Shown one piece after another: positions 1-4,927 of a stretch of DNA of 8,542 nt (within the stretch, counting starts at the first letter, position 1; each line of letters begins with the position of its first letter). The stretch is from Gemmatimonadota bacterium. Lineage in GTDB: Bacteria; JBHIER01; G020348925. Where the stretch lies: positions 1,430,055 to 1,438,596 of the forward strand of contig CP070758.1 in NCBI GenBank assembly GCA_020348925.1, written 5' to 3'. A program made the position numbers and the translations under genes. The notes under the pieces are model-generated. The model was not told the origin of the DNA, did no database searches, and saw nothing but the letters and a program-made list of their open reading frames with translations.

Positions 1-293
1 GAAGATTGTCAAGTTTGTTTTTGAACAAAAGCATATTTGGAATTTTTCAAGAATCGACCGTTTCGTAATGAAGCTGTAAGCCTTGCTCGTGTGGTATATA
101 AGTCAAAACATTTGGTTCGGTTCTTTTCAAAGAGTCCGCCAAACAACATCTATTACTTTCGCTTTTGTATTTTTAAAGGAAACGTAAAAAATGTTGTTTG
201 GCTTTGTGTGGAGCATCACCATCTGGTTGCTTCAGCACGTAATTTTCGTAACGTGCATCACTCAGCATTTAGTTGCATTGGCTTACGTCCGTT
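1..293. other. AT-rich segment upstream of first attC, likely end of a preceding integron cassette
   Basis: This stretch lies immediately 5' of the first attC-like site, so it would be the body of a preceding cassette cut by the window edge. It is AT-rich and full of small inverted repeats: a perfect 12-bp pair at 138-149/191-202 and GCACGT/ACGTGC at 235-240/251-256. GCATCAC also occurs as a direct repeat at 213 and 254. The only plus-strand frame of note is 37-300 (listed separately). I see no promoter, tRNA or recognisable protein domain. Cassettes without an obvious gene are common in chromosomal integrons, which fits but does not prove this reading. Confidence 0.4.
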
Positions 294-300
294 GCCCTAA
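37..300 (+). CDS. Doubtful small ORF (87 aa) in upstream cassette
   Basis: An open frame of 87 codons begins at a TTG and ends with the TAA embedded in the R'' box of the first attC (CCCTAAC). An ORF ending at the attC is the normal layout for an integron cassette. Against it being real, there is no Shine-Dalgarno sequence upstream of 37 and no ATG at the start. The product is rich in Phe, His, Asn and Arg with no domain I recognise, and the frame runs straight through a perfect inverted repeat (138-202) that may be the functional element. An upstream TGA at 22-24 closes the frame, so it does not extend out of the window. I treat it as more likely non-coding than coding. Confidence 0.2.
   Translation: MEFFKNRPFRNEAVSLARVVYKSKHLVRFFSKSPPNNIYYFRFCIFKGNVKNVVWLCVEHHHLVASARNFRNVHHSAFSCIGLRPLP
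138..202. repeat. Perfect 12-bp inverted repeat with extended imperfect stem
   Basis: GCCAAACAACAT at 138-149 is exactly complementary to ATGTTGTTTGGC at 191-202. Pairing continues inward imperfectly: TTAC/GTAA, then TTTC/GAAA separated by one unpaired base on the right arm. The whole hairpin is 65 nt. Its size and single bulged base recall a short attC site. However, the outer 12 bp pair without the unpaired spacer that separates R and L boxes in attC, and the ends (GCCAAAC/GTTTGGC) depart from the RYYYAAC/GTTRRRY consensus. It may be a folded RNA element or a derived recombination site. Confidence 0.6.
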
Positions 301-428
301 CTTTTGTTGCACCGGAATGTAGGACAGCTTTTGAAATCCAGAAAAATTTGTGCAATAATTAAAATTCTATACTTTCCGGAACGAACGGTGCGTTGATCGC
401 CCTATATCCGGTGAACATCACGTTATGT
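294..428 (+). other. attC: attC-like integron recombination site 1
   Basis: The 135-bp imperfect palindrome starts with an R''-like box (CCCTAAC at 295-301) and ends with an R'-like box (GTTATGT at 422-428). Inside, TGTT at 305-308 pairs with AACA at 414-417, and CACCGGA at 310-316 pairs with TCCGGTG at 407-413. G309 is left unpaired, like the extrahelical bases that direct integrase to one strand. Pairing continues as TGTAGG against CCTATA. The TAAC/GTTA ends, a mismatched spacer next to them, a bulged inner arm and a long loop together match the attC plan; RYYYAAC/GTTRRRY is the consensus, and each box here deviates at one position. Predicted cleavage is between G422 and T423. No integrase is in view. 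Confidence 0.65.
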
Positions 429-1223
429 CATAAAAACAATATACTTATGGAAATATAAGGAGATATATAAGATGAGAAAATGTTTGGCATTTTTAATAAT
501 TCTATTACCACTATTGATACATTTATCAATCGATAATGCTTTTTGTCAAACTGAACGAGAGCAGTGGCAGCCCCCAGAACAAATTATGGATTCAATTGGC
601 GTAAAACCCGGAATGATAATAGGTGAACCTGGAGCAGGACGTGGGTATTTTACCTTTCATCTTTCAAAGAGAGTTGGCGAAAAGGGTAAAGTCTATGCAA
701 ATGACATATCTCGTAGTAGTTTAAATGAAATCGATATGCGTGCAAAAAGAGAAGGGATAAATAATATTGAAATCGTATTAGGAGAAATTGAAGACCCTTT
801 GTTCCCAGTAAAAGATCTTGATATGATAATAATGGTATATGTATTACACATGCTTGATAAACCATTATCTTTTATGGAAAATATTAAAAAATATATGAAA
901 GATGATACACCTTTGGTTATCATCGAGAGAGATACTCATAGGGAACGTGCACATCCCCCTTCTTTTATGACGAAAAAACAGATATTAGAAAGTCTTCAAA
1001 AGACAGAATATGAATTAGAAAGGGTAGAAACATTCTTGCCAAGAGATACTATTTATATTTTTAAATTAAAGAAATGATCCTATCAATAAATATAATTTTG
1101 AAGCCATAACAACTGGCTGTAGTGGATTTAAAAAATCTTAGTTGTTTTGAGAACGTCAGCTTTACTGGAATTACATTTTCAATTATGATTGACGTGCAGT
1201 TTTTAAACCACTGAGCCATTACG
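423..1223 (+). mobile_element. Integron gene cassette carrying an exported methyltransferase
   Basis: Taking the predicted cut after the G of each R' box (G422|T and G1223|T) gives a cassette of about 801 bp. It contains one gene (472-1077) starting about 44 nt inside the left boundary and an attC (1103-1230) starting 26 nt after its stop. One short-leader gene with its attC at the 3' end is the standard cassette plan. The whole unit is AT-rich. A TATACT at 440-445 could be a -10 element but lacks a convincing -35, so the gene may depend on read-through from upstream. The inference depends on the attC calls; the integrase and primary attI site would lie outside this window. Confidence 0.55.
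472..1077 (+). CDS. Exported class I SAM-dependent methyltransferase
   Basis: The 201-aa product has an N-terminal signal peptide (basic MRK, hydrophobic stretch to about residue 20, probable cleavage near residue 25-26), so it should act in the periplasm or outside the cell. The mature part is a short Rossmann-fold methyltransferase. Motif I is E52-P-G-A-G-R-G58, the SAM-binding glycine loop. It is followed by a strand ending in an acidic position (YANDI) for the SAM ribose, and a later hydrophobic strand with DMIIMVYVLHML before the C-terminal half. The start is ATG 472 with AAGGAG at 457-462, 9 nt upstream. Small exported methyltransferases with the WQPPEQIMDSIGVKPG-type opening are recurrent in Bacteroidota-like genomes, but I know of no established substrate. 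It lies between two attC-like sites as a cassette gene. Methyltransferase fold is near certain; substrate and pathway are unknown. Confidence 0.85.
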   Translation: MRKCLAFLIILLPLLIHLSIDNAFCQTEREQWQPPEQIMDSIGVKPGMIIGEPGAGRGYFTFHLSKRVGEKGKVYANDISRSSLNEIDMRAKREGINNIEIVLGEIEDPLFPVKDLDMIIMVYVLHMLDKPLSFMENIKKYMKDDTPLVIIERDTHRERAHPPSFMTKKQILESLQKTEYELERVETFLPRDTIYIFKLKK

Positions 1224-1230
1224 TTATAAC
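1103..1230 (+). other. attC: attC-like integron recombination site 2
   Basis: The 128-bp imperfect palindrome has a left box CCATAAC (1104-1110) and a right box GTTATAA (1223-1229); the string GTTATAAC also occurs at cassette junctions of Vibrio-type repeats. TGGCT at 1114-1118 pairs with AGCCA at 1214-1218, GTGG near 1122 with CCAC near 1208, and TTTAAAAA with TTTTTAAA at about 1200-1207. One unpaired A lies in the left arm and a mismatched spacer separates the outer and inner boxes. A further inner pairing is ACGTCA 1153-1158 with TGACGT 1190-1195. It sits 26 nt after the methyltransferase stop and 33 nt before the next start codon, as expected for attC. It resembles site 1 in layout but not in loop sequence, as is normal for attC sites. 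Confidence 0.65.
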
Positions 1231-1262
1231 TTTTATAGTATCAATATTAATGGAGTATAGTA

Positions 1263-4259
1263 ATGATTCCTAAATTAAGAATCTTATTCATATGCTGGTT
1301 ATTTATTTCTATTATGATCCAATTACTCCTCGCACAGATCTCACCTTTATCGGAAAACATTTTTCCTGTGAAACAAAAAATCACATCTACTGAATACAAA
1401 ATACATAAACCAAAACATTTAGAAAAAATTCCTCCGGCACTTTATACAAAAACAGACTGGAAAGAGATCATTGACTCGACATGGGGCGCAGGATTATCGA
1501 CTACCGAGAATTTGACTATTTTTGATAAAGCCTGGAACGACATTGATCAAAGATATGGGGCATTCATGAATATATCTATTAACATAGATTCACTAAGAGA
1601 TTTATATCGACCGGAGATAGAAGCAGGTGTTAGCAGGGGAAGATTTGCGGCAATATTAAATCACCTGGCGTTTGCTCTCAAGGATGCGCACACACTTATT
1701 GAATATATGCCGGTAAACGTATTTACAGATATTCAACCAGGGATACCTCTTTTTGTAACTGGTGCTTGCGTAGATATAAGCCGCTTTGGTGCAGGTTTAA
1801 CACCGTTGCCGGATAGCACTCTATTAGTTTACAAAGCACTTCCAAACCATACATTGGGGCTGCAACCCGGTGATATTGTTTTAGGTTATGATGGTGTACC
1901 CTGGAAACGACTGTACAAACAATTGTTAGATGCGCAATTACCATTAAGGAATACACAAATGGGAAGCAATGATGAATCTGCAATACATATATTATTGCAA
2001 AGCGCCGGGTTAAACTGGCACCTGTTTGATACAATTGACATTTTAAAGTATGATTCAGGAGATACAATCCATTTGCAAACCGCCTTATTACTAAATCAAA
2101 GTGGCAACATTTGGGGAAATGAACAACTGCCCATACCTGGGGTTGCTTTTCCCGACGTATATAATAATGATTTTGTAAGCTGGGGGATTGTTGAAGGTAC
2201 GACAATCGGTTATATTTATGTATGGAGTTGGTTCCTGGATTCTGATGTAAGCGCACAATTTTATGATGCTGTTTATAATATTATGTTTAATTATGAAACC
2301 ACTGGTTTAATTGTTGATTTTAGAGTGAATTATGGTGGGGACATGCGAGTGGCGGATGCAGGCTATTCGCTTTTATTCAATGAAACACTCCAAAAAATTG
2401 CGTTCGATAACCGAGGTGATCCCGGTAATCATCTCGATATGGTACCTTCCACAACCCACCCTACGTATCTTTGGACAATAAGAGGCGATCCCGAAACGTT
2501 TTATGATAAACCGATAGCTGTTTTAACAGGTCCGAATGCGTTTAGTAATGGTGACTGGGAATCAGTAAGAATGCAATTTCATCCCATGGTTCGTACATTT
2601 GGTAAATCGACAAACGGTGCATTCACTATTAATGAAAGACGAGATCTGGGGAATTCTGATTTTATGTTTTGGCTGTCTACAGGCAGTGGCTACCTCATTG
2701 AAGGACATGAATATATGGCTCATCGGAGCGCGAATATTGACGAAAGGATTTGGCTGATGCAGGAAGATGTGGCCAGGGGCAGGGACACGGTGGTCGAAGC
2801 GGCCATCGCCTGGATCGGCAATCCCTATTACCTTCGCGCGGATTTCGTCGCCGATCAGATCACCGGTCACGCGCCCCTGACGGTGAATTTCACCGACCAA
2901 TCCTATGCCGTCCCCACCACCACGGCCTGGTCCTGGGATTTCGATGGTGACGGCGCCATGGATTCGTATGAACACAATCCCACATGGACCTATCTGGAGC
3001 CGGGAACCTACACCGTTTTCCTGGAGACATCAAACAATTCCACCTCCGATACCTTCACCCGGGAACAGTACATCAGCGTTTTTGACGGCGAGAGCGCCCT
3101 CCGGTTCGATAATGAGAACAGCTACGTGCTCTGCCCCGCTGACACCGGACTGAATCTCACCGATACCTTTACGCTTGAAGCCTGGATCCGTCCCGAAGGA
3201 TGGGGTGAATTTCCCACCCTGGGATACGGACGGATACTGGACAAGACATATCTGGCCCTCTATCTCATCGGCTCAAATCCCGCTGTCAACAATCACAGCC
3301 TGGCGATACAGTTCATGCATGCCGACAATTCCACCAGTTTCATGACCTCTCCCGAGGGCTCCATTGAACTCGATACCTGGCAGCATATCGCCGTGACTTA
3401 CGACGGCGCCGCCGGCATGGTTCATTGCTATAAAGACGGCATTGAGCAGGAGATCTCATTTACCGGTATGCCCTCCGGTGCCATCCGGGACAACGGCGCA
3501 AGCGACCTGTATATCGGTAGCAATCCGACCGGAAGTTACACTTTCGACGGCGTCATGGATGAGATCCGGATCTGGAATGTGGTTCGCACGGCGGCGGACA
3601 TTTCGGACCACATGGATTCGTATCTGCTGGGAGATGAAGCCGGGCTCCTGGCTTACTGGAACATGAATGAAGGAAGCGGGGATATCCTGACAGATGAAAC
3701 CCTGGGTGAGCATGACGGCATGGTGATAGATGCCGACTGGATCCAGGGGCTGCATCTGGATCCGCCCTCCCTGGACGACGATGGAGACGGGATCCTTGAC
3801 GTCGAAGATAACTGCCCGATCGTCTACAATCCCGGGCAGGAGGATACCGACGGCGACGGACCGGGTGATGCCTGCGATAATTGCCCTCATGTGTACAATC
3901 CGGAGCAGGAGGACGCCGACCATGATACAACGGGCGATCCCTGCGATGACTGTACCGATACCGATGGCGACGGCTTCGGCGATCCCGGCTACACCGCCAA
4001 CATCTGCGAGGAAGATAACTGTCCCCAGGTATTCAATCCCGACCAGGAGGAAATCGCCCGGGGAGACATCGACTGCGACGGCGGCGTCAATGTTCTGGAT
4101 GTGCTGGGAACCATCAACCACATCTTAGGCACAACACCCCTCATCGGTGCCCCCCTTGACAGAGGCGACTGCAACGGTGACGGAGGCATTGACATCCTGG
4201 ATGTCATCGGCATAGTAAACATCATTCTGGGTATCTCCCTCGAATGTTCAGGGGGATAG
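1263..4259 (+). CDS. Secreted S41-family serine peptidase with PKD, LamG, TSP3 and dockerin modules
   Basis: The 998-aa product starts at ATG 1263 (GGAG at 1252-1255) with a signal peptide to about residue 24. Residues ~85-470 form an S41 (tricorn/CTP-type) peptidase. It has a D-A-H143-T motif with the expected catalytic His, a PDZ-like segment around 165-225 (LQPGD at 200-204), the core strand [12 protein letters not shown] to residue 359, and TGPNAFS428NGD with the nucleophile Ser428. [10 protein letters not shown] segment follows. Then come a PKD domain (~524-606, with WDFDGDG), a LamG/concanavalin-like domain (~611-805, ending [11 protein letters not shown] and YWNMNEGSG), acidic Cys-containing TSP3 repeats (~838-930, NCP...NPxQ units) and a two-repeat dockerin (~933-995). 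Dockerin calcium-loop acids are D935/D937/D939/D946 and D969/N971/D973/D980. It probably cleaves peptides extracellularly; the substrate is unknown. The peptidase half is AT-rich (hand counts 30-38% G+C per 60-base line) and the tail from about 2780 is 57-60%, suggesting a chimeric gene. Confidence 0.9.
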
Positions 4260-4486: not shown

Positions 4487-4513
4487 TTATGACCCTATGG
4501 CGCTAACCGGTGT
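4448..4513. repeat. Nested inverted repeats at 3' end of the IS110 remnant
   Basis: ACACCGG at 4448-4454 is complementary to CCGGTGT at 4507-4513. Between them AACC (near 4475) pairs with GGTT (near 4485) across a short loop. The structure spans the transposase stop codon on the minus strand. IS110-group elements have structured non-coding ends, and some encode a guide ('bridge') RNA, so this could be a remnant of such an end. The pairing is seen directly; the function is speculative. Confidence 0.35.
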
Positions 4514-4927
4514 GTTCTTCAGGATGGGATATTCTTGAAAAGACTGATTTCTCTTTAGTATATAATAGATGGTTTCAAGCATCGTTCTATCCACAGTGAT
4601 TCTGGTCGCATTCTTGCCATGCTTGTAGCAGACCCGATTGTATAATTGTTCATAACGAAGAGAGCCTTTCACGGCATGATGAGAGTATTCGATCAGGATC
4701 CATCTGAGCCATTTTGAGCCTTGTTTCGTAATGTATCCCCGACGGACTTTCCCTCCGAAGGCATGAAGAGATGGTACCACTCCTCCGAAGGAGCACAGTT
4801 GGCCGTGAGAGGGAAAGCGGTGAACGGTTCCGATCTCCGAGACGATGAGCAGCTCTGAATACTCTTTTTCGTGAAACAAACAGGTTCTGTCGCCTGTCCA
4901 ATTGGCACTGTGATCCGAACAACCCAC
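4487..4927 (-). pseudogene. Truncated IS110-family transposase (C-terminal domain only)
   Basis: On the minus strand the frame encodes the C-terminal (Transposase_20-type, IS110/IS116/IS902) domain. Reading from about 4870 down to 4487, visible landmarks are SELLIVSEIG, RFPSHGQLCSFGGVVPS, an RRGYITKQGSKWLRW block and a helical end around ETIYYILKRNQ. In intact IS110 transposases (roughly 300-400 aa) this domain follows an N-terminal DEDD RuvC-like catalytic domain; here that domain and the start of the C-terminal domain are absent. The ATG at 4927 is incidental: residues upstream of about 4870 do not look like transposase and overlap the leader of the next gene. There is no sign of the other element end. 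It should be inactive. Its broken end lies about 70 nt upstream of the start at 4940. Confidence 0.8.

Follow-up and report, generated by a model that had tools for sequence, protein, structure and literature searches.

Integron integrases (IntI) recombine the folded bottom strand of an attC site, at the G/TT point, with attI or with another attC, thereby stacking promoterless cassettes. Two attC-like palindromes around a single gene in the stretch of DNA analysed here (the window; 8,542 nucleotides, G000:C1:1430055-1438596, within a single 5.04-Mb scaffold) therefore raise the question of whether this chromosome carries a cassette array and, if so, whether that array still belongs to a working integron, a bacterial platform for gene capture. 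The analyses described below suggest, with a probability of about 0.92, that the window covers the far end of a sedentary chromosomal integron, now decayed into a cassette array that lacks an integrase (CALIN). This reading builds on direct observation of attC anatomy, array order, cassette closure, homology at the crossover point and remnants of intI.

Both palindromes lie where a reading made from the sequence alone (hereafter the sequence-only reading) had placed them, and have the anatomy that it described, with outer TAAC/GTTA boxes and one bulged base per site, G309 in the case of site 1 (Table 1). The terminal R''/R' boxes of the two sites fit an RYYYAAC/GTTRRRY-like pattern, with strict conservation only in the core TAAC/GTTA, while the inner L''/L' arms are paired, with one bulged base at each site, and the spacer is mismatched. 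As predicted for attC sites, folding favours the bottom strand over the top one both at site 1 (z -2.25 versus -0.39) and at site 2 (z -3.20 versus -2.47). A strict palindrome scan, in which the two sites score 14.5 and 15.5, yielded no matches of 13 or above in 110 kb of dinucleotide-shuffled sequence. In a looser scan of dinucleotide shuffles of window positions 1-2700, the score of site 1 was equalled or exceeded in 15/500 cases and that of site 2 in 2/500, which makes it improbable that both sites arose together by chance, as had been supposed for the pair. A scan of the window against Rfam matched no family.

Table 1. Positions of attC sites, cassettes and genes in the window, and of the attC sites upstream of it
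Feature	Position	Strand	Details
attC site 1	295..428	+	R'' CCCTAAC 295-301; R' GTTATGT 422-428; crossover G422/T423
attC site 1, inner parts			L'' ~310-316 after bulged G309; loop ~80 nt; L' ~408-414
attC site 2	1104..1229	+	R'' CCATAAC 1104-1110; R' GTTATAA 1223-1229; crossover G1223/T1224
3' part of the cassette ending in site 1	1..422	+	no recognisable gene; start lies in the 100-N gap before the window
Complete methyltransferase cassette	423..1223	+	from G/TT of site 1 to G/TT of site 2
Class I SAM methyltransferase, 201 aa	472..1077	+	PF13847, E 3.5e-15
Last cassette, start	1224..2724	+	AT-rich S41-peptidase gene (ORF from 1263), GC3 0.32; PF03572, E 5e-11
PKD-LamG-TSP3-dockerin continuation of the same ORF	2724..4259	+	GC-rich, GC3 0.68, in frame
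Upstream attC sites, one ending each cassette	L006:15732-15830, 16848-16907, 17804-17862

Two covariance models were used to score attC sites. The first, R1, a narrower model with short loops, was trained on four attC sites from an unrelated genome (L071) together with the three sites upstream of the window. It gave the three upstream sites 49-55 bits (all three belong to its training set) and, across the genome, revealed more attC sites at 108, 849-850 and 1021-1024 kb; it recovered neither window site, probably owing to their ~80-nt loops. The training set of the second, R2, included long-loop sites of other loci and excluded sites 1 and 2. Applied to the window only, with filters off, R2 scored site 2 at 24.6 bits (E 7.4e-5) and site 1 at 12.2 bits (E 0.13), the latter marginal and not significant alone; with default filters over several loci, the window sites were absent from its output. 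With these models, a covariance search of the kind that the sequence-only reading had named as a check thus has a split outcome, with site 2 recovered by R2 alone and site 1 marginal by itself, so that site 1 rests mainly on its position in the array and on cassette closure. A third hairpin, at 138-202 inside the cassette preceding site 1, has 28-nt arms that are 82% complementary and a DNA fold z of -4.7 (110-255); it was rejected as an attC site, with 7.3 bits (R2), no attC bulge and a single copy in the genome.

Each cassette would consist of one gene and its attC site, once joined by the integron integrase. In a genuine array, the R'' of a cassette pairs by complementarity with the 5' junction of that same cassette. 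We compared the two for nine cassettes in four arrays and found agreement at 38/45 variable positions, as against a permutation mean of 21.2; not one of 100,000 permutations reached 38. Closure was poor in the L082 cassette (2/5 variable positions), which makes the array at 850 kb the least certain. In the complete methyltransferase cassette, the 5' junction GTTATGTC agrees with the complement of its own R'', GTTATGGC, at 8/10 positions. The methyltransferase itself has an N-terminal signal-like segment and a Shine-Dalgarno-like AAGGAG just 5' of the gene. PADLOC matches of methyltransferase and ABC proteins (mad2, mad3) seem to reflect the general fold, and we did not take them as signs of defence. 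For the cassette that ends in site 1, the junction predicted from R'' (GTTAGGGC) is absent both from window positions 1-293 and from the sequence after the last upstream attC site (GTTCGGTG). Since the R'' of site 1 mismatches the 5' junction of the fourth upstream cassette, the gap must contain at least one additional attC boundary.

The last cassette, which lacks its own attC site, has a second copy at 4.897 Mb (G000:4897336-4898505), with 94% DNA identity over 1.2 kb. Similarity between the two copies begins at CGTTATAAC (C1222), one base before the predicted crossover of site 2, and only 9/60 of the preceding bases are identical. Of all the evidence, this homology breakpoint speaks most directly for the use of site 2 in recombination. 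In front of the copy (L101) lies a different, short attC-like site with a weak score of 19.9 bits; a candidate attC match in L102 scored 19.8 bits. A duplication has carried the S41 cassette to 4.897 Mb, a natural case in which homology starts at the attC crossover.

These data also bear on whether common terminators, or palindromes dispersed in the genome, could have given rise to the hairpins, with a chance likeness to attC sites, as AT-rich intergenic hairpins are common and site 1 reaches just 12.2 bits with R2. Such an origin is contradicted by the closure test and by a homology breakpoint that falls at the predicted crossover; moreover, three high-scoring attC sites in the same orientation lie immediately upstream, and a bulged, mismatched stem with a long loop is unlike a terminator. 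We regard it as highly improbable.

The window is flanked on both sides by 100-N gaps and thus represents one contig of the scaffold, linked to the upstream array by scaffolding only. In L006, on the upstream side of the gap, an intI promoter-like leader comes first and is followed in turn by a 70-aa ORF, the final IntI codons, an attI-like site and three cassettes. Residues 30-59 of the 70-aa ORF match the integrase SAM-like domain (PF13495, E 7.5e-8), and the ORF aligns to positions 1-32 of TIGR02249; what is left of intI at this platform is 58 N-terminal amino acids and, at L006:14649-14705, the C-terminal HTHVLNRGGKGVKSPMDGL. The intI remnant lies ~3.7 kb and the attI-like site ~3.2 kb upstream of the window. 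The attI-like site, TATTCATTG/TTGGGCAAC, follows the intI remnant and is itself followed by a cassette that obeys closure, an arrangement found at both platforms of this chromosome (see below). The three upstream attC sites are oriented as those of the window, and their cassettes code for a trypsin-like protein, an Mrr-like restriction endonuclease and an EFR1-like flavodoxin/ferredoxin. The Mrr-like protein has a PADLOC match to PDC-M36A (E 1.7e-14) that is confined to its C-terminal half. The gap cuts off a fourth cassette, the gene of which begins MKTTIVRIGNS (AbrB/MazE-like by eye). The sequence-only reading had pointed upstream and downstream in the contig for an integrase gene, attI and more attC sites, and intI sequence (as a pseudogene), an attI-like site and three more attC sites are indeed present upstream. 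The extent that it gave, 294-1230, is real as far as it goes, within a larger array that starts ~3.2 kb upstream of the window.

Most cassettes are AT-rich, with a GC3 of 0.23-0.42 as against ~0.65 in the host genes that flank them, and the window is enclosed by gaps, as would be expected had the arrays come from a different organism through binning or scaffolding rather than from an FCB-group host. Foreign composition is, however, normal for cassettes, the arrays lie at several separate loci, and the upstream array is joined without a gap to GC-rich chromosomal genes (coding for Fe-ADH and a CBAH hydrolase), all of which makes contamination a highly improbable source.

A second platform is located at ~1024.9 kb on the minus strand (L081) and shares its leader and attI-like 18-mer with the first; exact copies of this 18-mer occur genome-wide at the two platforms only (G000 ~1426.3 kb and ~1024.9 kb). 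Its three closed cassettes code for a TadA-like deaminase, an ABC transporter and a GNAT protein, and its intI is reduced to the first codons plus MIYTHVLNRGGKSIRSPVVNL. At both platforms, intI retains only its start and its last ~20 codons, co-oriented with the cassettes, and the deletions differ between the two, making this a clear case of parallel gutting of intI at two platforms in one chromosome. This chromosome holds at least two copies of the platform, and in each the array is preceded by a promoter-leader, a gutted intI in the same orientation and an attI-like site. The leader contains repeats (ACGCAT, TTGACTTT and TATATGCTT) and a candidate intI promoter, TTGACT followed by TATGCT. 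About five diverged copies of the leader were noted (L006:14280-14375 and G000 243.0, 2005.9, 2528.7 and 1024.8 kb), only two of which precede an integron; a role of the copies in L098-L100 as further full platforms gained no support, with no attC sites after them.

Among the other chromosomal arrays, at least two are confirmed by closure and a third is likely, with attC arrays at 108 kb and probably at 850 kb. Three related cassette genes for zinc-type alcohol dehydrogenases/quinone reductases, two of them in tandem, lie at L082:8255-10294 and L080:9228-9995, and represent cassette duplication followed by divergence. In L080, a cupin cassette is followed by a palindrome (~12113-12165) that does not fit closure of that cassette and, directly afterwards, by RelE/ParE-like toxin and antitoxin-like ORFs (12227-12740; by eye).

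Whether the arrays are still shuffled depends on the integrase. A whole-genome search with TIGR02249 identified no intact IntI (gaps could hide one): its matches were the remnant and two genes of 301 and 328 aa, the alignments of which skip model positions ~185-241, a stretch that we take to be particular to IntI. Based on this pattern, the two genes are read as probable XerC/D-like recombinases. Across the genome, exact matches to the C-terminal motif of IntI are confined to the two gutted copies. Both results speak against a complete and active integron with an intact intI in a scaffold gap. In its favour are the many 100-N gaps in or beside the arrays, a genome completeness of 96.3%, and the 94% identity of the S41 copies, which suggests that the duplication is not very ancient; in addition, near-identical attC sites are known to complicate assembly and to split integrons in draft genomes (PMC9024848). 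Taken together, we estimate that an intact intI lies hidden in a gap with a chance of about one in eight, and consider a still active integron unlikely.

A CALIN comprises at least two attC sites less than 4 kb apart and no intact intI (PMC9668308). Here, sites 1 and 2 lie ~0.8 kb apart and three further attC sites lie upstream beyond a scaffold gap; of the intact intI expected in a complete integron, we found gutted copies only, one at each of the two platforms (with gaps that could hide one). Since no intact integrase was found, this is, strictly speaking, a CALIN or a decayed integron. The proposal of an integron cassette array around one gene is supported by the further attC sites, the attI-like site and the traces of intI, and has to be narrowed to a CALIN or decayed form as regards the integrase.

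In the past, IntI would have acted on attC sites folded from the bottom strand, recombining them at G/TT with attI or another attC. As the search turned up no intact IntI, the arrays are presumably immobile at present or can be moved in trans only, and loss of a co-oriented intI would put each array behind the old intI promoter. Alternatively, the platforms could be non-autonomous integrons, a counterpart of transposons with internal deletions, in which intI was repeatedly excised while the leader, the last codons and attI were kept, with cassettes inserted by an integrase that acts in trans and the array driven by the old, co-directional intI promoter. The diverged leader copies at 243, 2006 and 2529 kb would then be further relics. 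This possibility has a low probability in our estimation, and we favour decay of a sedentary chromosomal integron.

The decayed arrays share their attC architecture, the cassette closure rule and the G/TT crossover with the Vibrio superintegron and class 1 integrons, from which they differ in having few cassettes per array, diverse attC sites, no functional integrase found and a reversed intI orientation. Loss of intI with retention of attC arrays has been described in Xanthomonas (PMC12444791) and Treponema phagedenis (PMC3607928). As in those CALINs, we observe attC arrays without an intact intI, a large intI deletion and extra CALINs at other loci; unlike them, the present host lies beside Zixibacteria, several attC sites have long loops, and two platforms in one chromosome have an intI that was gutted internally, with the leader, the last codons and an attI-like site kept. 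The shared strand of the intI remnant and cassettes recalls Treponema, where intI is co-oriented with the cassettes (PMC3607928), and the attI-like site downstream of the 3' end of intI recalls archaeal integrons, where attI lies immediately downstream of intI (PMC9668308); in contrast to both, the integrase here is a pseudogene.

A phylogenetic analysis of RpoB (18 rows) was used to place the host, an uncultured bacterium, and confirmed the suspected affiliation with the FCB group: G000 clusters with a Zixibacteria MAG and bacterium Gpa_37 (support 100/99; 63.8% and 62.2% RpoB identity, respectively), with Bacteroidota and Cloacimonadota as neighbouring groups. We found no report of integrons from this lineage in the open-access literature, and it is not among the integron phyla listed previously (PMC8618304). 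Thus, a known kind of element, the decayed sedentary chromosomal integron or CALIN, is found in an apparently undescribed lineage, and the hosts of chromosomal integrons gain an apparently unreported lineage of the FCB group beside Zixibacteria.

The last gene of the window changes in composition along its length: within ORF 1263-4259, GC3 shifts from 0.32 to 0.68 at ~2724. A host paralogue (L145; 62% identity) is full-length, GC-rich and has the same S41-PKD-LamG-TSP3-dockerin plan, and L146 contains an AT-rich S41-dockerin gene. Together, the compositional break, the plan of the paralogue and the AT-rich gene mark the window ORF as chimeric, with an S41 gene of cassette type joined to a tail of host type through either recombination or assembly. 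The fusion (junction ~2724-2763) may be an assembly artefact: at L101:5019-5238, just past a scaffold gap, an apparent guanylate-kinase fragment abuts a dockerin gene with no N in between, and this suspicious join makes assembly chimeras possible. If real, the fusion would show how a captured cassette gene enters a resident family of surface proteins. The family of secreted proteins with LamG/TSP3/dockerin C-termini is very large in this genome (179 matches to the query protein), with several members clustered near 2.84-2.94 and 4.30 Mb. Between two dockerin-protein genes of the window, a short piece of an IS110-family transposase (PF02371) remains on the minus strand at 4487-4927.
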